Shown piece after piece: positions 18,449 through 29,876 of a stretch of DNA of 36,299 nt; within the stretch, counting starts at the first letter, position 1, and each line of letters begins with the position of its first letter. The position numbers and the translations under genes are program-made. The DNA lies in assembly GCA_016201205.1 (NCBI GenBank), contig JACQDF010000023.1:1-36299 (forward strand), given 5' to 3'. Under the pieces are notes generated by a model, which worked only from the letters and a program-made list of their open reading frames with translations, made no database searches and had not been told where the DNA came from. This DNA is from Acidobacteriota bacterium. Its GTDB lineage: Bacteria > Acidobacteriota > Terriglobia > Bryobacterales > Bryobacteraceae.

Positions 18449-19141
18449 TTACATCCTCGCCAGCACGGCCAGATCCAGCTTCCCTGTATAAATCGCCATG
18501 CCGAGCGCCGCGTGCACCTGCATTTGCTGCAACTCACGCACTTCCTCATAGCTGCTGATCCCGCCCGCTGCCGTGATCTCGCGATTCGTCGCCGCCCGCA
18601 ACCGCCGGAACCAGCCGAGGTCCGTGCCCTGCATCATGCCTTCTTTGTCCACGTAGGTGCAAAGGAAGCCGCCGCAGTAGGGCTCGAGCTCGCGCACAAC
18701 GGATTCGGCGGTCAGTTCGGTGGCCTCGCGCCATCCTTGCAGAACAATGCGCCCGTCCTTGCTGTCCAGAGCAATTAACAGGCGTTCCGGCTCCACTGCT
18801 GAGGAGATCTGACAAAGCAGTTCGTGATTTACTCCAGCGCTGTGAAACGCCGCTGTGCCCACGATCACCTTGCGTGCCCCTCGGGCCAGCAGCTTTTTCG
18901 CCCGCTCCGCCGTGCGCACACCGCCCCCGACGCGGGTGACGGCTTTGCCCGCCAGGTATTCGACCAGCGCGCCGTTCTCCCCGCGCCCCATCGCTCGATC
19001 CAGGTCGATCACCTGGATCTCAGCAAACGCCGAGAAGCGCTCCAGCATCTCATCCGGCGTGCCGCCTTCCAGCGCCTTCTCGCGTCCCTGCACGAGCTGC
19101 ACCACTTTGCCGTCCATCAGATCGATGCAGGGGATGATCAT
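18449..19141 (-). CDS. hisA: Phosphoribosylformimino-5-aminoimidazole carboxamide ribotide isomerase
   Basis: HisA isomerises ProFAR to PRFAR, the fourth step of histidine synthesis, in the cytoplasm. The 230-residue protein is a TIM barrel like HisF. IIPCIDLMDGKVVQLVQG holds the first catalytic aspartate, VGGGVRTAERAKKLLARGA the first phosphate-binding loop, and YVDKEGMMQGTD the second catalytic aspartate. AAGGISSYEEV and GMAIYTGKLDL close the barrel. I chose ATG 19141 because the family begins at this isoleucine pair; in-frame ATGs at 19156 and 19165 would only add a short tail. It is the last gene of the his operon but is separated from hisF by a foreign membrane-protein gene. Confidence 0.95.
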   Translation of the reverse strand: MIIPCIDLMDGKVVQLVQGREKALEGGTPDEMLERFSAFAEIQVIDLDRAMGRGENGALVEYLAGKAVTRVGGGVRTAERAKKLLARGARKVIVGTAAFHSAGVNHELLCQISSAVEPERLLIALDSKDGRIVLQGWREATELTAESVVRELEPYCGGFLCTYVDKEGMMQGTDLGWFRRLRAATNREITAAGGISSYEEVRELQQMQVHAALGMAIYTGKLDLAVLARM

Positions 19142-19187
19142 GCTGCCGGTCCTCATCTGTGACATGAACGATCCGCGATTCTTTGTG

Positions 19188-20126
19188 TCATGGGAATAGT
19201 GAGCGCAAAGCCGAACCGACTTTGAAGTGTCCGGCAAGGAACGACAAGGTTGGGATGATAAGAGACGTGATATAGCCACCGACCGCCTTCGGATCCACGG
19301 CCGTCTCGCGGGCGCCGGACAGCCTGGAGTTGAGATCAACCAGTTGAGAAAGCTGCTTGCGTTCTTCATCGTCCAACTGCATCAGCCGCAAAGCAAGAAC
19401 TCCTAGTTGCTGCTGCACCCGCAGCATTTGCCGTGTCTTCTCCCGGCGAATGGCTCGATAAAGGTGGAACTGCGGATAGAGGAACCCGTAGGAGATACCG
19501 GCGAGTCCAACAGCAAGCCAGGTCAATGAGACGGTAGCTGCTAGTCTGGACTCCCAGGGACGAAACCAGTACATTCCAGTGATGCAAAGTGTTAGCACAA
19601 TGCCTTCACTCAATGACATGGCATTGAAGCTGAACGACAATGTCCTGATCCAGCCAGTGTCAGCAGGATTCAGCCAATACATTCGGATATCAGTCTCGGC
19701 GGCCGCCTTGGCTAGCGTTGGTGTGTACAAAGCACAGTAACCGCCGTGGAATACCCAAAAGAGACAGACGAAGCCAAGCAAATACGAAGTGACACTAAAG
19801 CGCGCCGACGTCGCATGTTGAATGACGAGAAGCGTAGGCACAATCATAATGCTTAGGAACACTGAGAATGCTACTTGACGACGCAGCGATAGAAAACCAT
19901 GAAACCAATTCTCTAATGCTCGCAATGCCTCGGTGCTGGCGGCGTTGCTCATTAAGTTCGAAACATTGTCAGCGAAAAGATTATTAAAAAGAGTGTTGAC
20001 TATGACAATCGCACAGGTACAGATGAAGCAGACTAGAGCTCGACCAGTGTCGAGCATGGGATTGCCGTGCGAGAGAACAAGGCCCAGGAGCGTGGAAGTT
20101 ACATAAAGGAATATAAGACGAAGCAA
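19188..20126 (-). CDS. Membrane protein of unknown function inserted in the his operon
   Basis: This protein of about 312 residues has six likely membrane segments (for example LIFLYVTSTLLGLVLSHG, ALVCFICTCAIVIVNTLF, VAFSVFLSIMIVPTLLVI, YLLGFVCLFWVFHGGY, LAATVSLTWLAVGLAGISYG). After these come a charged cytoplasmic coiled stretch (REKTRQMLRVQQQLG, DDEERKQLSQLVDLNSRL) and a final hydrophobic segment. I do not recognise the family. Base composition is visibly poorer in GC (about 42% in one 60-base row) than the flanking his genes. The frame starts at TTG 20126 right after a stop. A better N-terminus (ATG 20172, MESTEKPDLTQYALK) is in another frame, so one base may be missing near 20127. It lies between hisF and hisA, in the same direction. 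Confidence 0.6.
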   Translation of the reverse strand: MLRLIFLYVTSTLLGLVLSHGNPMLDTGRALVCFICTCAIVIVNTLFNNLFADNVSNLMSNAASTEALRALENWFHGFLSLRRQVAFSVFLSIMIVPTLLVIQHATSARFSVTSYLLGFVCLFWVFHGGYCALYTPTLAKAAAETDIRMYWLNPADTGWIRTLSFSFNAMSLSEGIVLTLCITGMYWFRPWESRLAATVSLTWLAVGLAGISYGFLYPQFHLYRAIRREKTRQMLRVQQQLGVLALRLMQLDDEERKQLSQLVDLNSRLSGARETAVDPKAVGGYITSLIIPTLSFLAGHFKVGSALRSLFP

Positions 20127-20176
20127 GTTTCAAGGCATACTGCGTGAGGTCAGGCTTCTCAGTGCTTTCCATGAGA

Positions 20177-20311
20177 TTACGAATAAGTATATGTCACATT
20201 CATCTGGGATTTCAATTCTGCCGTCGCCACCAGGAGGAATGGACCAGTCTCCGTTAGTAAAGCCAGGACAACAGGTCGCCCTCGGTTGCGTATGATCGGG
20301 GCGGCGTTCAT
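20177..20311 (-). CDS. Possible 44-residue peptide coupled to hisF
   Basis: An ATG overlaps the hisF stop (ATGA) and opens a 44-codon frame ([20 protein letters not shown], then [16 protein letters not shown]). It is hydrophobic in the middle. There is no recognisable family. The frame may be a remnant of whatever filled the hisF-hisA gap before or with the insertion, or chance. Coding is not established. Confidence 0.25.
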
Positions 20312-21072
20312 ACCACGCTCCTCACCGCCACTCCGTGCTTTGCCAGATAGCCCTTCAAGTCCGCCACCGTGTATGTGCCGTAATGGAAGATCGACGCCGC
20401 CAGCGCCGCATCCGCCTCGCCTCCGGTGAGCACATCGAGGAAGTGCTCCAGCTTTCCCGCGCCTCCGCTGGCAATGACGGGAATTCGCGTCGCATGCGAC
20501 ACCGTGCGTGTCAACTCGCAATCAAACCCCTCCTGCACTCCGTCGGTGTCCATCGAGGTGAGCAGAATCTCGCCCGCGCCCAGCTCCTGGCCTCGCCTCG
20601 CCCACTCGATGGCGTCGATGCCTTCATCGGTGCGTCCCCCGTGTGTATACACGTTCCAGCCGCCGCCGGATCTGCGTCGTGCATCGATTGCCAGCACGAC
20701 GGCCTGGGCGCCGAATTCCTCGCTCAGCTCGGAAATCAAGGGCGGCCTCCGGACGGCGGCGGTGTTCACGCTCACCTTGTCCGCCCCGGCCATCAGGATC
20801 CGCCGCCCGTCGGCCACCGAGCGAATGCCGCCGCCCACTGTCAGCGGAATGAAGACCTTGCGAGCCGTGCGCGCCACTACATCCACCATCGTCTCGCGAT
20901 GATCGCTGGAAGCCGTGATGTCGAGAAACACCAGTTCGTCGGCGCACTGCTCGTTGTAGCGCTCCGCCAGCTCGACGGGATCGCCGGCATCGCGCAGGTT
21001 CACGAAGTTGACGCCCTTCACCACGCGGCCGCCGGTGACGTCGAGGCAGGGAATGATGCGTTTGGCGAGCAT
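20308..21072 (-). CDS. hisF: Imidazole glycerol phosphate synthase, cyclase subunit
   Basis: HisF uses ammonia from HisH to turn PRFAR into imidazole glycerol phosphate and AICAR, linking histidine and purine synthesis. The 254-residue TIM barrel has the catalytic aspartates in [18 protein letters not shown] and [13 protein letters not shown]. Phosphate-binding loops are seen in [13 protein letters not shown] and [19 protein letters not shown] and the [15 protein letters not shown] end are typical. ATG 21072 lies three bases after the hisH TAG, with GGAG overlapping that stop. The length matches the family. Confidence 0.97.
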
Positions 21073-21075
21073 CTC

Positions 21076-21669
21076 CTAGAGGTTTACGAAGTTCTTCACG
21101 ATGCGCAATCCCAAGGGACCGGACTTCTCCGGATGAAACTGCACCCCGAACAGATTCTCGCTCTCGAGCACCGCTGTGTACTCGACTCCGTATTCGCAGA
21201 CCGCCGCTGTCTGCGGCGCAACCGGACAGTAATAGCTGTGGGCGAAATACAGATAGGGTTTCGAACCAAGGTCCAGGCAAAGTACGCTCTCCGGCTTGGC
21301 ACGGATCTCGTTCCAGCCCATGTGAGGGACGCGCAGATCGTCGCCGAAGCGCTTCACGGCGCCCGGAATCACGCCGAGTCCCGCCAGGTCCGGCGCTTCT
21401 TCGCTGTGTTCGAACAGCGCTTGCAAGCCCAGACAGATTCCCAGAAACGGCACGCCATCAGCGATATTGCGCTTCACCGGCTCCCGCAGGCGCATCATCT
21501 CGAGCGATCGCATCATCTGCCCGAAATGGCCGACGCCCGGCAGAATGATCTTCGAAGCCGCCCGCAGCCCTTCCGGCGTGTGCACCAGACGGTAGGCTGC
21601 GCCGATCTCGGCCAGCGTGTTTTGTGCGCTCCGTAAGTTACCCGCTCCGTAATCGATGATCGCGATCAT
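21076..21669 (-). CDS. hisH: Imidazole glycerol phosphate synthase, glutamine amidotransferase subunit
   Basis: HisH hydrolyses glutamine and channels ammonia to HisF. The 197-residue class I amidotransferase shows [16 protein letters not shown] at the start, the oxyanion region [10 protein letters not shown], the nucleophile in [16 protein letters not shown] and the His-Glu pair in [18 protein letters not shown] and YFAHSYY are family marks. ATG 21669 overlaps the hisB stop (ATGA), so the longer open frame upstream is not used. The stop is TAG, which shows that TAG is a true terminator in this genome. Confidence 0.97.
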
Positions 21670-22253
21670 AACAAGCCTTTGGTCGACGGCAGTTGATCCT
21701 TCAGCCGCGCGTCCTTCGAGCACGCATACTTCATCGCCCTGGCGAAACACTTGAAGATCGATTCGACCTTGTGATGACTCGATCGCCCATAGAGCACCTT
21801 CGCGTGCAGGTTGGCGCCACAATGATTCACAAAGCCCTCGAAGAAATCGTGCACCAGCTCCGCCTGCAAGTCACCCACCAGCCGCGCCTTCACCAGATCT
21901 TTGTACACCAGCGACGGCCGGCCTCCCAAATCCACAGCGACAACCGCCAGCGTCTCGTCCATCGGCTGCACGAAGTACCCGGCGCGATGGATGCCTTTGC
22001 GGTCGCCCAAAGCCTTTGAAAAAAGCTGCCCCAGCACGATTCCGCAGTCTTCCACCGTATGGTGCTGGTCGACGTCCAGATCGCCCTTCGCTTCGAGCGC
22101 CAGGTCAAACCCGCCATGCTTTGCGAACAGCTCGAGCATATGATCCAGAAAGCGGACGCCGGTGCGGATGTCATAGCGGCCTTTGCCCTCCACCCGCAAC
22201 TGCCCGCGAATCCGCGTCTCGTTCGTATTACGGATGAGCCGGGCGGTTCGCAA
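21666..22253 (-). CDS. hisB: Imidazoleglycerol-phosphate dehydratase (monofunctional)
   Basis: HisB dehydrates imidazole glycerol phosphate to imidazole acetol phosphate. The 195-residue protein has the manganese-binding histidine motifs [29 protein letters not shown] and [10 protein letters not shown], plus [18 protein letters not shown]. No ATG fits. I choose TTG 22253, which gives [15 protein letters not shown], the family's usual beginning, with GGAGG six bases upstream inside the HAD gene. The gene overlaps the end of the HAD gene by 26 bases. It lacks the N-terminal phosphatase domain found in enterobacterial HisB; that role could fall to the adjacent HAD protein. Confidence 0.95.
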
Positions 22254-22923
22254 GGAACGCCTCCAGTTGATTGATGTCCTCCAGAACAGCCGCCGCCTGC
22301 TCCTGCCGGAACAGCGCCAGCAACTCGGTTCGGCGGCCGTGCGACTGGCTGGCCACACCGATAAAAGCCACTCCCGCTCCGCGCGCACAGCGGGCGTCGT
22401 CCACCGTGTCGCCGACATACCACATCGGCTGCCCCGTTCGCAGTTCGGCCACCCGCAGCAGACCCTCCGGATGCGGCTTGCCGTGCTGCACATCGTCCGC
22501 CGTCACCACCGGATCAAACGGCAGCTCACTCGCCAGACGCGACAGCGACAGGCTCAATTCATGGCGCGGGCGGCCGGTGAAAATGCCCAAGTCAAAATCG
22601 CGGCCCAATCGCTCGAGCAGACCCGGCTTTGCAATCCATTTCTCGCGCAGAATCAGCCCGTCGTCCCCATTGCCCAGAAACAGCTCTTGAAAATGGTCGA
22701 TCACAGCGTGGTAGCCGACCTCGACGCCCAGGTCCGCCGCCATTTTCTGCGACAGCGCCCAGTCGTTATTCCATCCGCCGGCGTTCTTGTAGGCCTGGAT
22801 CATGTCATAAGTGACCGGCTTACCGGTGAAGTGCTCGACGGTCTGCCGGATGGTTTCGCGATAGGACCCGGTCACCTCCACCAGCACGCCGTCCATGTCG
22901 AACATGATCAGCTCGCGGGTCAT
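22228..22923 (-). CDS. HAD-superfamily phosphatase, candidate histidinol-phosphatase
   Basis: This 231-residue HAD hydrolase (subfamily IA pattern) has motif I in [12 protein letters not shown] with both aspartates, motif II threonine in [11 protein letters not shown], motif III lysine in [11 protein letters not shown] and motif IV in [17 protein letters not shown]. It sits between hisC and hisB and overlaps both, exactly where a histidinol-phosphate phosphatase is needed. No hisN- or PHP-type phosphatase is present in the operon. Function is inferred from position and fold, and HAD enzymes have broad substrates. ATG 22923 shares one base with the hisC stop; a GTG three bases earlier is also possible. 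Confidence 0.85.
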
Positions 22924-23981
22924 CACCAGATCTCTTCCAGCGACTCGAGGAAGCGCTCCGCGTGTGGCCGCGTCCCCACCGTGACGCGAACGCCCCCGGC
23001 GACCTCGTAGCTGCGGTCGCGAACCAGCACGCCCATCGCGCGCAGCTTGTCACGAATCTCGATGGCTCTCGATCCGGCGTCAAAAAGCACAAAGTTCGCC
23101 TGGCTGCGGTAATAGCGGATGCCCAGCCGCTCCAGACCGCGGTAGATCTTCTCCCGCGCCTCGAGCACCTCGGCTGCATAGTTGCTGACGTAATCGGAGT
23201 CCTCGAGCGCCGCCCGCACGGCAATCGCCGCCAGCAGGTTGACGCTGTAAGGCGACTGCGCCTTGCGCAAGCAGGCGGCATTGGCCGCCTGCGTCAGAAT
23301 CACTCCCACTCGCATCGCCGCCATGCCATACGCCTTCGAGAACGTGCGGCTCACGAAAAGATTCGAATACTCGGCCACCAGCGGCAACGTGGTGACACGG
23401 CTGAACTCGTAATACGCTTCATCGATCAGCACCGCCGCATGCGACGCCCGGTCCAGAATGCGGCGGATCGAGCCAACGTCCGTGCCGGTGCCCGTCGGGT
23501 TGTTGGGATTCGCGATCAGAATGGCGCGTGTGTCCGGGCCGATCGCATCGAGCATCTCTTCGAGCGGAAACGCCAGATCCGCCGTCCGGTAGGGGATCGC
23601 CTGCACCCGCGCTGCGGCAACCTCCGCATAAAAACGGTACATGGCATAAGAAGGGTGCGGCAGAAGCACCTCATCGCCGCCGTCAACGTAGGTGTTCACC
23701 AGAAGCTGGATCGCCTCGTCGGTGCCGTTGGTGAGCACGATCTGCTGCTCGTCCACATCAAAGAACCGCGCCAGCGCCTGCCGCGTCTCACCGTACTCGG
23801 GGTAAACAGAAAAGGTGTTCTCATCGAGACGCTGTCTGAGGTACTCGAGCACGCGCGGCGAGCAGCCCACGGTGTTTTCATTGAAGTCCAGCCGCAGCTT
23901 GTCAACCCGCCCCGCCGTGGGCGGCCGATAGGGCGCCATCCTGCGCACGGCTTGGCGTGGCTGCAGCAGCGCAGTCTTCAC
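22923..23981 (-). CDS. hisC: Histidinol-phosphate aminotransferase
   Basis: HisC transfers an amino group from glutamate to imidazole acetol phosphate. The PLP enzyme of about 352 residues has the motifs LRLDFNENTVGCSPRVLEYL, TNGTDEAIQLLVNTYV, LIANPNNPTGTG, LIDEAYYEF and the PLP lysine in SRTFSKAYGMAAMRVG. The open frame runs back to 24086, but GTG 23981 gives VKTALLQPRQAVRRMAPYRP, the natural beginning. It lies one base after the hisD stop. Its end overlaps the HAD gene start. Confidence 0.95.
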   Translation of the reverse strand: MKTALLQPRQAVRRMAPYRPPTAGRVDKLRLDFNENTVGCSPRVLEYLRQRLDENTFSVYPEYGETRQALARFFDVDEQQIVLTNGTDEAIQLLVNTYVDGGDEVLLPHPSYAMYRFYAEVAAARVQAIPYRTADLAFPLEEMLDAIGPDTRAILIANPNNPTGTGTDVGSIRRILDRASHAAVLIDEAYYEFSRVTTLPLVAEYSNLFVSRTFSKAYGMAAMRVGVILTQAANAACLRKAQSPYSVNLLAAIAVRAALEDSDYVSNYAAEVLEAREKIYRGLERLGIRYYRSQANFVLFDAGSRAIEIRDKLRAMGVLVRDRSYEVAGGVRVTVGTRPHAERFLESLEEIW

Positions 23982-23982
23982 C

Positions 23983-25227
23983 TCACCGGCCAAGCCGCAC
24001 CTCGACACTGCGCGCATGCCCTTCCAGTCCCTCCGCCCGCGCCAGCGTGGTGATCGACGGGCCCAGCCGGCGCAGCGCCTCTCCATTCAGCTCCTGCACC
24101 GAGATCACCTTGACGAAATCCGCTGCCGACAGCCCGCCGCGGAGGCGCGCCGCGCCGTTGGTCGGCAGCACGTGGCTGGGCCCGTTGGCGTAATCGCCCG
24201 CCGCTTCCGGGCTGTTCGGCCCGACGAATACGGTGCCCGCATGCCTTACCAGGTCCAGCAGCCGCATCTCGGGAATGCTCAGGTGTTCCGGCGCGAACTG
24301 ATTCGACAGCTCCAACGCCTGCTCCAGCGAGTTCGTAATGATGATCGCGCTGTTCCGATCGATCGACTTTCGCGTGATTCTGTTTGTCGGCAGCTCCGCC
24401 ATCTGCCGCTCGAGTTCCTGCGCCACCAGCGTCGCCAGACGGCGCGAGGTGGTCAGCAGCAGCGCCGCCGCATCCACGTCATGCTCGGCCTGCGCCAGCA
24501 TGTCGGCGGCGATCCAGCGCGGGTCGCCTTCGGCCGAAATGATGAGGATCTCGGTCGGCCCGGCGATGAAATCGATGCCGACCTCGCCTGCCAGCAGCTT
24601 CTTTGCAGCCGCCACGTAAATGTTGCCCGGGCCCACGATGCGGTCGGCTTTCGGCACCGTTTTGGTTCCGAACGCAAACGCCGCGATGGCATGGGCCCCG
24701 CCCATCTGAAACACCTTTCTTACATCCAGCATGGCCGCCGTTCCCAGAATCTCCGTGGTCGGACGCGGCGTCGCCACGCTGATCCGGGGAACCCCTGCCA
24801 CCTGCGCCGGCACCACCGTCATCATTAAGGTGGACGGCAGCGGATGGCGTCCGGAAGGGATGTACGCCGCCACCGAGTCCAAGGGCCGCACAATCTGTCC
24901 CAGCCGGACACCGGGCGACAACGCCTTGCGGAACGGCTTCGGCAATTGCAATCTGGCGTAGCTGCGGATATTCTCGACGGCGATCTTGACAGCGCTCCTG
25001 AAATCGAGGGACAGCTCCTCGGCTGCCCGATCGAGAGCGTCGGCCGGCACCGTGACGCACCCCCGGTCCAGCCCATCCAGCTTCTTTGCATACTCGACCA
25101 GAGCCTTGTCGCCGCGCTTGCGCACCGCCTCCAGGATCGGCTTCACCATGCGCTCGGCCTCTTCGAGCCGCGACGTCCTCCGCTCGATGATCTTGTTTGC
25201 GTGGTTGGCTTCCAGAATCCGGATCAT
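23983..25227 (-). CDS. hisD: Histidinol dehydrogenase
   Basis: HisD carries out the last two oxidations, from histidinol to histidine, using NAD and zinc. The 414-residue protein shows AYIPSGRHPLPSTLMMTVVP, VFQMGGAHAIAAFAFGT, the NAD-region GPGNIYVAAAKKLL, AGPTEILIISAEGD, the catalytic/zinc segment AQAEHDVDAAALL and the C-terminal NQFAPEHL and GDYANGPSHVLPT. All zinc ligands of the family appear to be present. ATG 25227 is two bases after the hisG TAG. Confidence 0.97.
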   Translation of the reverse strand: MIRILEANHANKIIERRTSRLEEAERMVKPILEAVRKRGDKALVEYAKKLDGLDRGCVTVPADALDRAAEELSLDFRSAVKIAVENIRSYARLQLPKPFRKALSPGVRLGQIVRPLDSVAAYIPSGRHPLPSTLMMTVVPAQVAGVPRISVATPRPTTEILGTAAMLDVRKVFQMGGAHAIAAFAFGTKTVPKADRIVGPGNIYVAAAKKLLAGEVGIDFIAGPTEILIISAEGDPRWIAADMLAQAEHDVDAAALLLTTSRRLATLVAQELERQMAELPTNRITRKSIDRNSAIIITNSLEQALELSNQFAPEHLSIPEMRLLDLVRHAGTVFVGPNSPEAAGDYANGPSHVLPTNGAARLRGGLSAADFVKVISVQELNGEALRRLGPSITTLARAEGLEGHARSVEVRLGR

Positions 25228-25229
25228 GG

Positions 25230-26099
25230 CTACATCACGATCTTGTTCAAAGGGTATTCCACGATGCCCTGCGCCCCCGCCTGTTTCAACCGGGGAATGA
25301 TGCTGCGCACGGTGCTTTCATCGAGAATGGTGTTCACCGCCAGCCATTCGGCGTCGCTCAAGTGAGAAATGGTGGGCTTCTTCAGCGCCGGCAGCACACC
25401 GAGCACCGACTCGAGGTCCCTCTGATGCACGTTCAGCATCAATCCCACTTTGCCCAGTGCGCCAATGGCGCCTTCCAGCAGCATGAGGATGTCTTCCAGC
25501 TTCCGCCGCTTCCACTCCTGCTGCCACGAGTCTTTGTTGGCCACCAATTGCGTGTTCGATTCCATCACCACGTCGATAATGCGCAGCTTGTTGGCCCGCA
25601 GCGAGGAACCTGTCTCGGTGACTTCCACGATGGCGTCTGCCAGCACGGGCGGCTTCACTTCCGTCGCGCCCCAACTGAACTCGACCTTCGCCGTCACCCC
25701 GTGCCGCGCCAGATAGCGCCTGGTGGCGCCCACCAGCTCCGTTGCGATGATCTTGCCTTGCATGTCTGTTACCGAATGGAAGGGAGACGCCTCCGGCGCC
25801 GCCAGCACCCAGCGCACCTTGCCGAAACTCTGCTTGGCGTAAATCAGGTCCGCCACCGTGACCACCTCCGCCTCGTTCTCTTCCACCCAATCCCGCCCGG
25901 TCAGCCCCGCATCCAGCACGCCGTCTTCGACGTAGCGCGCCATCTCCTGCGCCCGGATCATCATGCATTCGATCTCCGGATCGTCAATCGCGGGAAAATA
26001 CGACCGGGTCGAAGTCGTGATGCTGAACCCCGCGCGCCGGAACAGATCAATGGTCGCGTTTTCCAGGCTTCCTTTCGGAATTCCTAACTTGAGTTTCAA
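25230..26099 (-). CDS. hisG: ATP phosphoribosyltransferase, long form
   Basis: HisG condenses ATP and PRPP, the committed step of the pathway. The 289-residue protein is the long form, with a C-terminal regulatory (ACT-like) domain (about 210-289) that senses histidine, so no HisZ partner is needed. Seen are [31 protein letters not shown], the PRPP loop [18 protein letters not shown] and the regulatory part [20 protein letters not shown]. The start is TTG 26099, preceded by GGAGG seven bases upstream within the end of hisI. The weak start codon may tune its dosage. Confidence 0.95.
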
Positions 26100-26102
26100 C
26101 GC

Positions 26103-26477
26103 TCAGCCTCCGTAAACTTTGCCCGGCTCGAAGGTGCGCTGGTCGGTGACCACCCAGGCGCCTCCGTCCAGCTTTCTGTAGAAGCAGCTCAGGTAGCCGT
26201 TGTGGCAGACGCCCGGTCCCAGCGCCTCCACTTTTACCACCACGCTGTCCTGATCGCAGTCGGTCGCGATTTCCTTCACCAGCAGCCGGTGGCCGGACGT
26301 CTCGCCTTTCATCCACAGTTTCCCGCGCGAGCGGCTGTAGAAAGTCGCAAAGCCGGTTTCCACGGTCTTCCGGAACGCTTCTTTGTCCATGAAGCCGACC
26401 ATCAACACCCGGCCCGTCCGCTGGTCCTGTATGACCGCGGGAATCAATCCGTCCAGTTTGGTGAAATCCAGATCCAT
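26103..26477 (-). CDS. hisI: Phosphoribosyl-AMP cyclohydrolase
   Basis: HisI opens the adenine ring of phosphoribosyl-AMP. The 124-residue protein is monofunctional: it has no HisE (phosphoribosyl-ATP pyrophosphatase) extension. Metal-binding residues are seen in ATDCDQDSVVVKVEALG and GVCHNGYLSCFYRKL; the substrate-binding part is FYSRSRGKLWMKGETSG. It is the first structural gene of the operon and starts 18 bases after the T-tract of the attenuator. I find no hisE in this window, so that step must be encoded elsewhere. Confidence 0.96.
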   Translation of the reverse strand: MDLDFTKLDGLIPAVIQDQRTGRVLMVGFMDKEAFRKTVETGFATFYSRSRGKLWMKGETSGHRLLVKEIATDCDQDSVVVKVEALGPGVCHNGYLSCFYRKLDGGAWVVTDQRTFEPGKVYGG

Positions 26478-26494
26478 GATGAATCGTTCAAATG

Positions 26495-26520
26495 AAAAAA
26501 CCCGCCGGAACCGCGGCGGG
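26495..26520 (-). terminator. his operon attenuator terminator
   Basis: On the minus strand CCCGCCG pairs with CGGCGGG (26514-26520 with 26501-26507) around a six-base loop CGGTTC, followed by six T's (26500-26495). It lies between the leader peptide and hisI. The loop CGGTTC is complementary to GAACCG at 26543-26548 (minus strand), which follows the leader stop. That 2:3 pairing would compete with the terminator. Confidence 0.85.
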
Positions 26521-26553
26521 CTTCGTAGCTCTTACAAACGTTCGGTTCGCGCT

Positions 26554-26628
26554 TCAGAACCCTGCCCGTCGCGGCACGTCCAGGGGAGCATGATGGCCGT
26601 GGCTGTGCTGGGCGAGGTGAGCAAACAT
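26554..26628 (-). CDS. hisL: Histidine operon leader peptide
   Basis: A 24-codon frame reads MFAHLAQHSHGHHAPLDV then PRRAGF, stop TGA. It has five histidine codons (positions 4, 8, 10, 12 and 13) within ten residues, far above chance, directly upstream of an intrinsic terminator and hisI. Ribosome stalling at histidine codons when charged tRNA-His is scarce is the known logic of his attenuation. There is no Shine-Dalgarno sequence; the -10 lies nine bases before ATG, so the mRNA is probably leaderless or nearly so. A ribosome reaching the stop would cover the GAACCG antiterminator segment and favour termination. Confidence 0.85.
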   Translation of the reverse strand: MFAHLAQHSHGHHAPLDVPRRAGF

Positions 26629-26637
26629 GAAGCTAAC

Positions 26638-26646
26638 AGTATATCA
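26638..26646 (-). promoter_or_regulatory. Promoter of the his operon (extended -10)
   Basis: TGATATACT on the minus strand is an extended -10 (TGN-TATACT). It is nine bases before the leader ATG (26628), so transcription probably starts two to three bases before that ATG. No good -35 hexamer is visible, as is usual for extended -10 promoters. Confidence 0.6.
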
Positions 26647-26827
26647 GAACAGAATGCCGTGCGCGTTGTTTGCTTCTTCGCGCGGCCGCGCCTATGCTGA
26701 TATCAGGCGCTCAGGGGCGCCTTCCCGCCGAAAGAAGCCTTCACCATGGAAGTTCCACCGGGTACATCCATTGCAAATTTTCGAGATGGCCAGCAGGGAG
26801 CGGGGAGTGGCCGAAAAGGAGACTGCA

Positions 26828-27388
26828 ATGATCGATGCGATCCGCGAGCTGAAAGTACGCGCCGAGATCCTCCATGGCCGGGTGAGCGCCCGCGACAGCG
26901 GCGCTCTGAAGCGGCTGCGAGTGCTTTCCGAATTTCGCCGCTGCTCGGATCAGGAATTGGCCGCGATTGCGGGTGCCATTCGCCGGCGGCATTGTCTGGC
27001 TGTCATCGCCGCGGAGCTGGGATTCCCCGGCTGGCCGCAAGCCAGACGCGCCATTGCGGGGGAAGGCCCATTGAGCGACTTCGGCGACCTTCTTTGCCCT
27101 GCCCGCTGTTGCGGGCACCTCAACCTGTGGTTCACGCGTTACCAGGAGGCGGCTGCTGTTCGAATGGCTCGCGGGGGCTACCTGCTTGCCTACCGGCGGC
27201 ACTACCTGGTGGTCGACCGCTACTATATCGATTCCCTCGGTCTCGATCCCGACGACGCGGACTGGAATGCGCTCGGGTTCGACTGGGTGCAGCCCAGGGA
27301 TGCCGCCGCGCGTGGGCGGCTGTACGCCAGGCTGATCGCCGGGCTGCCTCGGGACCACGGCGCGGATTCCAGTGCGCTGAAGCAATGA
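26828..27388 (+). CDS. Conserved-looking cytoplasmic protein of unknown function
   Basis: The 186-residue protein from ATG 26828 is supported by AAAGGAGA seven bases upstream; the longer frame from 26627 overlaps the his promoter and is not credible. It has no signal peptide or membrane segment. Landmarks are LGFPGWPQARRAIAGEG, DFGDLLCPARCCGHLNLWF with three cysteines and a histidine (a possible metal site), and GGYLLAYRRHYLVVDRYYID followed by LGLDPDDADWNALGFDW. I recall similar hypothetical proteins in other soil bacteria but no function. It diverges from the his operon. Confidence 0.72.
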   Translation: MIDAIRELKVRAEILHGRVSARDSGALKRLRVLSEFRRCSDQELAAIAGAIRRRHCLAVIAAELGFPGWPQARRAIAGEGPLSDFGDLLCPARCCGHLNLWFTRYQEAAAVRMARGGYLLAYRRHYLVVDRYYIDSLGLDPDDADWNALGFDWVQPRDAAARGRLYARLIAGLPRDHGADSSALKQ

Positions 27389-27422
27389 CTGCACTGGGAT
27401 CCGAGCGTCTGGCCGGGTGCTG

Positions 27423-27758
27423 CTAGTCCCGCGTCTGCGGACTGACGACGTGGGTTACTTCACCGGGTTTGACGCTCTCGGCAGCTTTCAGTAGCTCCGT
27501 AAAGATTGGCTGATAGGAGCCGATCTCGTTGTTGGGCACTCGGGCCAACACAAATCCCAGCTTCAGTTTCTTGAAGTTGTGCTGCCCTTCGAGCTTTCGG
27601 TCGATGGTAACGAAGACATCAAATCGCCCTTGCGCGTAGGCCAGCAGGGAACCGTCCTTGCTGCCGCGCAAGCCAATCTCGTTGACGGTCTTGACGGCGT
27701 GCCCAGGGAAAGCCGCTTTGACTGCCGCATTCACACATTCGTCTAGGAGGATACGCAC
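27423..27758 (-). CDS. DUF5615 PIN-like toxin
   Basis: This 111-residue protein starts at GTG 27758. MRILLDECVNAAVKAAFPGH is the usual DUF5615 beginning with the acidic pair LLDE, and DVFVTIDRKLEGQHN carries the late aspartate. DUF5615 proteins are PIN-like and are the toxin-side partners of DUF433 antitoxins. It overlaps the DUF433 gene by 16 bases, so expression is coupled. Both frames are intact, unlike the TA remnants at the start of the window. Confidence 0.88.
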   Translation of the reverse strand: MRILLDECVNAAVKAAFPGHAVKTVNEIGLRGSKDGSLLAYAQGRFDVFVTIDRKLEGQHNFKKLKLGFVLARVPNNEIGSYQPIFTELLKAAESVKPGEVTHVVSPQTRD

Positions 27759-27979
27759 GCAAGGAGATTGTCTTTGGCCAGTTCGATAAACCGGATGGCT
27801 TGTTCACGAGTGACGGAAGGAAAGCCTTGCAGAAAGTCGTCCAAGGTGGAGTTGCCCTCGATGTGGTCTACCAAAGTTTGCACCGGCACTCGCGTACCCT
27901 TGAAGCACGGCTCTCCGCTCATCCGGTCGGGATCAACCCAAACGATGTCGTCCAAGAGGGCTTTTTGAGCGGCGGTCAC
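27743..27979 (-). CDS. DUF433 antitoxin
   Basis: This 78-residue protein starts at GTG 27979. It shows the DUF433 pattern: IVWVDPDRMSGEPCFKGTRV, PVQTLVDHIEGNSTLDDFL, GFPSVTREQAIRFIELA. DUF433 proteins have a small helical DNA-binding-like fold and neutralise the DUF5615 partner. The start codon's spacing from GGAG is short (two bases), so initiation may be weak. Confidence 0.88.
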   Translation of the reverse strand: MTAAQKALLDDIVWVDPDRMSGEPCFKGTRVPVQTLVDHIEGNSTLDDFLQGFPSVTREQAIRFIELAKDNLLACVSS

Positions 27980-28157
27980 ATCTCCAAGTTAGACCATCCG
28001 GTTGTGGTTAGGCAAGCGGGTTTCCGAGTCGCTGACCAGCAGGAACAAGAACCGGCAAACCTTGCAGGTCCGCGCGGCGTTTATCAACGGAACTGCGGCG
28101 CGGATTCCCGCACTCGGAAGTCGACGCGGTAGGAGTCCTTCGTGCCGGGCCACCTGA

Positions 28158-29876
28158 TTACCGGGCCAGCGTGAAGTTCACATCGACTTGCGTCATCACT
28201 TCCACCGGATTGCCGTTCAGAAGCGTGGTCGCGTACTCCCACTGCTTCACCGCCTCGACCGCAGCCTGGGCCAGCAGAGCTTCTCCGCTGATCACCTGAA
28301 CGTCCATGACTTTGCCGTCGCGGCCAATGCGCACTTGCAACTGCACTGTTCCCTGCATGGCGGCCTGTTTGGCCAGAGGTGGATACGCCGGCCGCACCTG
28401 TTTGGTCAGCTTGGCCGCCAGCACGTTGCCGCCGACGCGGATGGCCATCGGCGCCGGCATGATCTCGACCACCATGTCCTCGCTCAGGACCGCTCGAAGA
28501 TTGGGATCCACCTCGGACACCGCCTGCTGGATGGCGGCGAGGGCCTCATGTGTCAGCGTGTCGCCCTCCTTCACCGGCAGCCTCGGCTCGATCCTGGCTT
28601 TCAGCCTGCCATCCACGCCGGCGAACTCGATGCGGCGGAGAACACCCAGCACCGGCTGCTCCGGCGGGACTTTCTCCTGGCGAAGGTGAAACTCCATTTC
28701 CAGGTTGGCTTTCACTTGTGTGCCTGTCGGCTCGAACTGCCATTGCAGAACCGCTTGCAGGGCGGCGCGGCGCAGCTCGTCCGGCCCTCCCAGCACCCGC
28801 CCGTCCTGCACCAGGCCGCGTGCGTCGATGGTCACCTCCAGGTCCACCTTGCCCTCAATGCGCTTCAGCTTGGCATCCGGCGGATAGACTGCGTTCACTT
28901 TGTGCAGAATGCGCGGCGTTCCTGGTCTTGCCTCGCCTTGCGCCTCGGCCTTCCCGGAGCTTGTTTCCGACTGGGCCGGCGCGCGAAGAGGCAACAGCGT
29001 CCCCGCGAGAACGCCCGCGATCAGAATGGATGTTGCGCTCATCGAGAGCGAAAGGAGCATGCGCGTTCGAGTCATGTTGAGAATTGCCGCCACTCGCTCG
29101 GCGAGATGGCGGCTGCGAAGCAAAGGCGGAGCGGGAAATATGTCCGGCTGCGGCTTCCAGCCGGCGAACACCAGCAGCGCTTCCACATAGGCCTGACGCC
29201 CCTCGGTGGCCCTTATGACTTCCTGGTCGACCACCTGCTCGCGGGCCAGTTGGACGCGGCTGAGCAAATACCAAACGCCAGGGTGGAACCAGAGCAGCGC
29301 ACGGATGATCTCCTCGGCTACGGCGAACAGCCAATCCCGGCGGCGGACATGGGTAAGCTCATGAGCGCAGACGGCGTCCTGCTGATCGCCGGACAGACTC
29401 AGGAATTGCTCCGGCAGCAGGATGACTGGCCGCCGCCAGCCAAAGGTGACCGGACCGCTTACTTCGCGCGAAACGAAGAATTCCGCTCCCCGACGCCCCT
29501 CGACAGGCGCTGCTCCGCGAACCAGGGCTCTGATCCGCCAGCCGCCGGCTGCCAATCGAGCCAGAAAGAGCCCGGCGCCCAGCGCCAGGATGCTCACCAG
29601 CGCCGCCTCCCAGGGAATCGGCCACGCCGAGGGCATCGAAGGCACAACCGCCACCGGCCCCAGACTCACTTTGACCGCTGAGGAAACGGGCTCCGGCCGC
29701 TGCCACTTCTCCAGCAACGGAAGAGCCAGGCACAGCGCGAGCACCGTTTGCCAGTGCCACAACCGCAGCCGCGGCGGATGCGTTCTCAGGACGAGTGCCG
29801 CGGCCATGGCTGCCGCCACGATGGCGGCAACTTGCGCGGAATACAGAAGCAGATTTTCCGCGATCAGTCGCGTCAT
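28158..29876 (-). CDS. BlaR1-like M56 membrane metalloprotease with two TonB C-terminal domains and a POTRA-like segment
   Basis: This 572-residue protein has N-terminal membrane helices (NLLLYSAQVAAIVAAAMAAA, LALCLALPLLEKW, EAALVSILALGAGLFLARL), an M56 peptidase domain with AHELTHVRRRDW (HExxH, about residue 171) and a further helix (LSMSATSILIAGVLAGTLL). Two TonB C-terminal domains follow: about 320-400 (KVNAVYPPDAKLKRIEGKV, LQWQFEPTG) and about 490-572 (QVRPAYPPLAKQAAMQGTVQ, VKQWEYATTLLNG). Between them is a POTRA-like segment (LRRIEFAGVDGRLKARIEPR, LPVKEGDTL). BlaR1/MecR1 proteins sense a signal and cleave their repressor; here the usual penicillin-sensor domain is replaced by TonB-type domains. 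It overlaps the BlaI gene (ATGA). Confidence 0.88.
   Translation of the reverse strand: MTRLIAENLLLYSAQVAAIVAAAMAAALVLRTHPPRLRLWHWQTVLALCLALPLLEKWQRPEPVSSAVKVSLGPVAVVPSMPSAWPIPWEAALVSILALGAGLFLARLAAGGWRIRALVRGAAPVEGRRGAEFFVSREVSGPVTFGWRRPVILLPEQFLSLSGDQQDAVCAHELTHVRRRDWLFAVAEEIIRALLWFHPGVWYLLSRVQLAREQVVDQEVIRATEGRQAYVEALLVFAGWKPQPDIFPAPPLLRSRHLAERVAAILNMTRTRMLLSLSMSATSILIAGVLAGTLLPLRAPAQSETSSGKAEAQGEARPGTPRILHKVNAVYPPDAKLKRIEGKVDLEVTIDARGLVQDGRVLGGPDELRRAALQAVLQWQFEPTGTQVKANLEMEFHLRQEKVPPEQPVLGVLRRIEFAGVDGRLKARIEPRLPVKEGDTLTHEALAAIQQAVSEVDPNLRAVLSEDMVVEIMPAPMAIRVGGNVLAAKLTKQVRPAYPPLAKQAAMQGTVQLQVRIGRDGKVMDVQVISGEALLAQAAVEAVKQWEYATTLLNGNPVEVMTQVDVNFTLAR

Follow-up and report, generated by a model that had tools for sequence, protein, structure and literature searches.

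Organization of the his locus

The window, that is, the whole 36,299-nucleotide stretch of DNA analysed here, carries on its minus strand a cluster of histidine biosynthesis genes in the order hisI-hisG-hisD-hisC-HAD hydrolase-hisB-hisH-hisF-unknown-hisA. Families could be assigned to nine of the ten cluster frames, namely eight his genes and the HAD-type hydrolase, with the hisA match falling below the cut-off of its own model, TIGR00007. All ten frames lie on the minus strand, and the cluster is presumably transcribed as a single operon. The HAD-type hydrolase, encoded between hisC and hisB (22228-22926, minus), lies near TIGR01548 at a score below the cut-off and is a candidate for the histidinol-phosphate phosphatase; no other frame of the cluster was named as this enzyme. 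The frame between hisF and hisA (19188-20126, minus; 312 residues) had no NCBIfam or Pfam match at an E value of 0.001.

Upstream of hisI the minus strand reads, in order, an extended -10 element, nine bases, a short histidine-rich frame with its stop codon, about 32 nt, a terminator and the hisI start. The features are listed below, with segments numbered by the 1:2, 2:3 and 3:4 scheme of the classical his attenuator.

18449-26477, minus: his cluster, hisI to hisA (family matches)
26103-26477, minus: hisI, phosphoribosyl-AMP cyclohydrolase, first gene 3' of the putative attenuator (NF000768, above cut-off)
26638-26646, minus: extended -10 promoter element TGATATACT (sequence; hexamer counts in 87 loci)
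26554-26628, minus: leader peptide frame of 24 codons plus TGA with five His (ATG at 26628, stop at 26556-26554)
26590-26619, minus: putative regulatory His codons, leader codons 4 to 13 (sequence reading and codon usage)
26605-26624, minus: segment 1, predicted to pair with segment 2 as a protector hairpin when no ribosome is on the leader (minimum free energy fold)
26564-26574, minus: segment 2, probable antiterminator strand CCGCGACGGGC, leader codons 19-22, 3' of the His codons (complementary at 10 of 11 bases to 26511-26521)
26543-26561, minus: GGTTC-stop-GAACC, which may fold as a small hairpin spanning the leader stop codon (weak permutation support)
26511-26521, minus: segment 3, terminator 5' arm and first loop bases, GCCCGCCGCGG (pairing with segment 2)
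26495-26521, minus: intrinsic terminator hairpin and U tract, segments 3:4 (terminator scan, alignment and folds)

The leader peptide, MFAHLAQHSHGHHAPLDVPRRAGF, has its histidines at codons 4, 8, 10, 12 and 13, and its ATG lies 151 nt from the hisI ATG (26477-26475). The terminator is a GC-rich hairpin with the loop CGGTTC, reading GCCCGCCG-CGGTTC-CGGCGGG (26521-26501), followed by six T (26500-26495). An initial annotation of this DNA had proposed that these elements form a complete his attenuator, and on the minus strand all of them are present where it placed them, give or take one base at the terminator edge. A terminator scan of 26300-27000 returned one site against an average of 0.8 in shuffled sequence, and a sigma-70 two-hexamer scan of the same interval reported no promoter. 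For this reason, neither element stands out when taken alone.

Conservation of the leader and terminator upstream of hisI

Is the arrangement kept in related genomes? hisI was matched at 62 places in 60 of 61 near genomes, a weak second place in one of them (G052) was left out, and 80 named loci were added. The resulting 141 loci contained 124 with distinct sequences in the last 160 bases before hisI, of which 18 were set aside as non-Acidobacteriota by title and 106, window included, were taken as Acidobacteriota, with L119, titled 'bacterium', counted among the latter. A leader was called where a frame starting at ATG and 8-45 codons long had three or more His within 12 codons.

By this definition a His-rich leader is present in 88 of the 106 distinct regions, window included, compared with 58 of 2120 dinucleotide shuffles, and a leader with a terminator after it is present in 87 of the 106 regions, compared with 12 of 2120 shuffles. 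The arrangement as a whole therefore stands out from chance, and the proposal of a his attenuator with a His-rich leader is strongly supported by comparison. One alternative is that a chance short frame adjoins the terminator of a gene further upstream. It would fit the terminator scan, which by itself is not above chance in the window, but the comparison of 87 of 106 regions with 12 of 2120 shuffles already refutes chance, and the promoter-like element, leader and terminator keep a fixed order across loci, so that we regard the probability of this explanation as virtually nil.

The enrichment is for histidine in particular. At a threshold of at least four identical residues within 12 codons, His qualifies in 80 of the 106 regions, followed by Arg in 24 and Ala in 20. 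The 87 leaders contain 266 CAT and 196 CAC codons at a median of 5 His per leader (range 3 to 8), and both codons are used in 82 of them, which indicates that the amino acid rather than the bases has been kept, as expected of a translated frame. By eye, the residues flanking the His run differ between families.

Named carriers include Bryobacterales/Bryobacteraceae, Solibacter-like, Terriglobus, Granulicella and Vicinamibacterales/Vicinamibacteria records. The host had been taken from the sequence to be an Acidobacteriota bacterium, in agreement with the finding that L002 and L031, from the same genus as the window, are identical to the Bryobacteraceae/Bryobacterales records L063 and L062. No leader was found in 18 of the 106 regions, 11 of them in one genus (g28). 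In L032 a comparable frame starts at TTG, and L005, in the same genus as the window, has a leader with a terminator that the scan rejected. A promoter-like hexamer and a terminator without a His leader lie upstream of hisI in L020 (G012), L098 and L102, in which the switch seems to be decayed or altered. Among the 18 loci set aside, L136 has a GTG frame with three His and, by eye, no attenuator.

A probable antiterminator strand within the leader frame

In the window, CCGCGACGGGC (26574-26564) is complementary at 10 of 11 bases to the terminator 5' arm GCCCGCCGCGG (26521-26511). Terminator arms were swapped between species as a test of co-evolution: across 65 representatives, which are still related to each other, the native 2:3 duplex has a mean energy of -21.17 kcal/mol, as against -19.29 (sd 0.32) after permutation of partners, and the native value was not matched in any of 5000 permutations. 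Locus by locus, the native arm pairs better than the mean foreign arm in 65 of 87 cases and ranks in the best tenth in 19. Relative to shuffled spacers, the 2:3 duplex has a mean z of -1.81, with 47 of 87 loci at or below the 5% level; for the window locus alone, 6 of 200 shuffled spacers reach its own duplex. Inspection by eye shows that both 2:3 strands depart from the common form in L059, L061, L083, L097 and L141.

The same pairing was counted by columns after 46 of the 87 loci, hand-picked and mostly from Bryobacteraceae, had been aligned. Pairing in register was counted in 76.2% of cells, and sliding the strands by 1-3 columns lowers this to 32-42%. Column shuffles give 74.0%, with 4 of 500 as high as the native value; the margin is narrow since the core shows little variation, and column pairs 25:106 and 30:98 are unpaired in most rows. 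Terminator pairing, for comparison, holds in 98.1% of alignment cells. An antiterminator that excludes the terminator is therefore conserved as a pairing by permutation (0 of 5000), and less markedly by the column count. Based on these comparisons, the antiterminator strand is most likely CCGCGACGGGC, inside the leader just after the His codons.

This assignment differs from that of the initial annotation, in which GAACCG (26548-26543), within the region of the stop-codon hairpin, served as segment 2 and would pair with the terminator loop CGGTTC as the antiterminator. The two strings are complementary in the window, and across 11 same-genus loci (a set that omits L005, whose terminator failed the scan) GAACCG follows the stop codon in 10 and CGGTTC occupies the loop in 6, these being L001, L003, L004, L007, L016 and L031, with the last C in the stem in L004 and L031. 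However, the loop varies while GAACCG stays constant in L002, L006, L008 and L012, and a pairing of six bases leaves the 5' arm of the stem free. In the 46-locus alignment 47.8% of cells pair as compared with 45.3% after shuffling, 62 of 500 shuffles being as high, while a segment within the leader pairs in a species-matched manner. GAACCG is consequently a very unlikely antiterminator. In relatives, the His codons are conserved and a species-matched 2:3 pairing is seen; the pairing of GAACCG with the loop gives no comparable signal.

A weak pairing of GGTTC with GAACC had also been suggested. It may form a small hairpin around the stop codon, with 90 of 5000 permutations as good as the native pairing. 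By eye the hairpin had looked like a covarying element, and the permutation count supports it weakly.

The species-matched pairing also bears on whether the His-rich peptide might itself be the product, for example in metal binding, with the terminator unrelated to it. Leaders with a median of five His are indeed very His-rich. Nevertheless, in 87 of 88 regions a terminator lies between leader and hisI, families do not by eye share the residues next to the His run, and pairing between the bases of the last leader codons and the terminator is species-matched, all of which makes it very unlikely that the peptide itself is the product.

The leader is probably leaderless

Of the 87 loci, 26 have 8 nt and 33 have 9 nt between the end of the -10 hexamer and the leader ATG (59 in all); the window locus has 9 nt. 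A hexamer with at least four of six matches lies 5-12 nt before the start in 69 of 87 leaders; among hisI starts this holds for 3 of 87, and among 2590 other ATGs for 4.2%. Where a leader had several in-frame ATGs the one with the best -10 score was chosen, which affects few rows and favours the result, as control ATGs had no such choice. A TG lies one or two bases 5' of the hexamer in 57 of 87 loci. No conservation at -35 was seen by eye in the position table of the 87 loci. A Shine-Dalgarno-like sequence was found ahead of 8 of the 87 leaders, as compared with 31 of the 87 hisI starts and 16% of other ATGs; the leader of the window has none.

The window thus has the features of a leaderless start, with a -10 element about 7-10 nt before the ATG and no Shine-Dalgarno sequence, and the counts in the 87 loci strengthen the earlier view that the leader is apparently leaderless. 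Leaderless genes have been recognised in the literature by a TANNNT motif about 12 bp before the start, and the source describes such genes in all three Acidobacteria genomes it covers, at a mean of 13.3% (PMC3160421). From the sequence we conclude that the leader is probably leaderless and that the 5' end of its RNA would fall on the ATG or no more than about 3 nt from it.

A purine-rich block, GGAAAGGA, occurs just 5' of the terminator in many Bryobacteraceae (L010, L015, L018, L072, L075, L076, L083, L084, L095, L099 and others). It was considered as a hairpin-bridged Shine-Dalgarno sequence for hisI and rejected, the link to a missing site being non-significant, with Fisher p values of 0.17 over 87 loci and 0.25 over the 65 representatives.

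RNA folding in three ribosome states

How would the leader RNA fold with the ribosome absent, at the last His codon or at the stop codon? In the window, the whole leader folds with codons 2-8 in a hairpin with segment 2 and its flanks, together with the terminator. A piece of RNA that begins at 26590, just inside the last His codon, and stops at 26503, part-way through the 3' arm of the terminator, folds as the 2:3 antiterminator, and one that begins at 26543, representing a ribosome at the stop, folds as the terminator. The fold energies are no better than those of shuffles (z of -0.65 for the whole leader and -0.72 for the RNA from 26590).

Across the 87 loci, the terminator forms in all 87 with the ribosome at the stop codon. 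With no ribosome the terminator forms in 79 of the 87, and segment 2 is then paired upstream in 67. With the ribosome at the last His codon and the RNA ending in the terminator loop, the antiterminator wins in 74 of 87 loci, compared with 59.7 for shuffled spacers; with the ribosome in the same position and the full RNA, stability favours the terminator in 76 of 87 loci, that of the window included. This last result means that the switch must be kinetic, with antitermination decided before the 3' arm is synthesized, and that folds alone are weak evidence. Attenuators are usually assumed to decide antitermination before the terminator 3' arm is made. The 1:2 hairpin has a mean z of -1.12 over the 87 loci, with 22 at or below the 5% level (for the window alone it does no better than shuffled sequence, z of -0.5). 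A 1:2 protector hairpin overlapping the His codons may form, with moderate support over the loci as a whole.

Proposed model for attenuation of the his operon

Very probably the his operon is controlled by a ribosome-mediated transcription attenuator at this locus, which senses charged tRNA-His. Support for this reading comes from comparison: the conserved His leader, the conserved terminator, the species-matched 2:3 pairing and the promoter spacing. We infer how the operon would respond to histidine, where ribosomes would stand, the kinetic order of events and the position of the RNA 5' end. Transcription would start on the leader ATG or a few bases from it, and such a transcript could take up a ribosome at its 5' end with no need of a Shine-Dalgarno site. 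When histidine is scarce, the ribosome would stall on His codons 4-13 and open the 1:2 hairpin, which would release segment 2 (26564-26574) for duplex formation with segment 3 (26511-26521) while the terminator is still unfinished, and hisI and the genes behind it would be transcribed. When histidine is sufficient, the ribosome would reach the stop codon (26556-26554) with its footprint over segment 2, and the terminator would form. If the leader is not translated, the 1:2 hairpin would form and termination would again be favoured.

Could the locus instead belong to a described class of his RNA regulator, such as a T-box, a known His leader family or a riboswitch? In favour of this are matches over the terminator to the Phe and Leu leader families, which are at chance level (E values of 2.1 and 1.4). 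The only Rfam family to reach its gathering score in the window, however, is a tRNA elsewhere, and none reaches it in 20 chosen relatives. The His leader family RF00514 stays short of its gathering score in both sets and is absent from the 8 matches up to an E value of 10. Membership of a described class is accordingly very unlikely, and the locus is filed under the attenuation mechanism rather than under RF00514.

The enteric his operon begins with hisG, whereas hisI is the first gene here. Further differences from the gamma-proteobacterial his attenuator are that the leader has no Shine-Dalgarno sequence, that its start codon is probably near the RNA 5' end, that there is no covariance match, and that hisI lies 151 nt from the leader ATG. 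The likeness, as far as it is described in the source, is a leader with His codons and competing terminator and antiterminator hairpins before the his operon (RF00514; PMC9413887). The same source gives comparative predictions of Firmicutes His leaders in the B. cereus group, Peptostreptococcaceae and Erysipelotrichales, with three to five His codons, a terminator and an antiterminator; these belong to another phylum, and in the part of that account consulted a leaderless start is not described (PMC9413887). The word Acidobacteria is absent from its main text. A second likeness is the ilvBNC attenuator of Corynebacterium glutamicum, which has terminator and antiterminator hairpins and is reported to have a leader peptide that starts one nucleotide from the transcription start (PMC11857589). 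It differs in its branched-chain codons and in being from Actinobacteria, and it is likened here by description, not by sequence.

Among the papers listed from the full-text literature, which covers subscription journals thinly, none was recognised as describing a his attenuator in Acidobacteriota; Lopatovskaya et al. 2010 (Mol Biol 44:128) may bear on the point. This kind of switch is known, and its use in Acidobacteriota appears to be undescribed within the literature searched. Since the leader seemingly starts at the RNA 5' end, it is also well suited to studying the coupling between transcription and a leaderless message. A broader proposal, to which we give somewhat less than even credence, is that an old his attenuator, separate from the enteric one, is spread across several Acidobacteriota lineages, that the ribosome loads on a bare 5' AUG as the RNA emerges, that such direct loading may replace the enteric pause hairpin in coupling ribosome and polymerase, and that ilvB is attenuated too.

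Distribution in the phylum

In a sample of the phylum, hisI was matched in 83 of 129 genomes, and 66 loci besides that of the window were read (16 left out). A frame was returned in 23 of the 66, and L204 and L206 were dropped as frames inside genes; terminators were judged by eye. The 21 loci with a leader are all 13 of family f8, which lies in the same class as the window, and 8 in other families, with the leader of L193 starting at GTG. The remaining 45 of 66 loci showed no leader in the 330 nt before hisI. Several of these seemingly do not stand at the head of an operon: hisI there seems to follow hisF, so the operon head lay outside the search.

For the genus without a leader before hisI (g28), only a distant HisG was matched, in 8 of its genomes and one other. 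Of these 9 HisG loci, 7 had no His frame ahead of them; in the other 2, a frame starting at GTG and containing 3-4 His lies some 950 nt upstream and has the look of coding sequence. Plasmid records gave two Neisseria matches, which cover 16% of the query and lie within hisI.

A second his leader was sought with a model in 12 genomes, 150 of several thousand first-look candidates being scored in each. One place was returned in the genome of the window (G000), and the best match was at hisI in 9 of the 12; in G012 the best place at hisI has a terminator and no leader. Three extra weak matches (L262, L263 and L264) were rejected, two lying inside long frames and one being a terminator without a leader, and the weak matches L265 and L266 overlap, on the other strand, a place already seen. 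G003 carries two very similar hisI loci (C240 and C229; L003 and L031), each with its own leader, which are possibly two strains in one bin, as 7% contamination is listed.

Leader-like frames before other amino acid operons

Other amino acid operons were also inspected. No Leu leader of the leaderless type was seen before leuA in ten genomes, and a Trp-rich frame was seen before trpE in one of 11 loci; in the genome of the window the trpE frame begins at the contig edge, so that its upstream region lies outside the comparison. The one locus, L185 (G011), has a 28-codon frame with four Trp (MWIWLPAERSCVWPEPFGHSNWMYTIDG) about 106 nt before the trpE frame and no evident terminator, and could be a chance occurrence.

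Upstream of ilvB in the genome of the window (L170, G000:C274, ilvB at 26739-28421) lies a short Ile-, Leu- and Val-rich frame, MDRSSQLSVSEALPVLTGIIILVIVAGPA, and, as judged by eye, a terminator comes after it. Of the 10 ilvB loci that score above the family cut-off (L164-L173), all but L169 and L173 have a comparable frame ahead of the gene, and an Rfam search of these 8 gave no match. A run of at least five T lies between frame and ilvB in 7 of the 8, with a run of four in L168. The frame and terminator upstream of ilvB look like a second attenuator.
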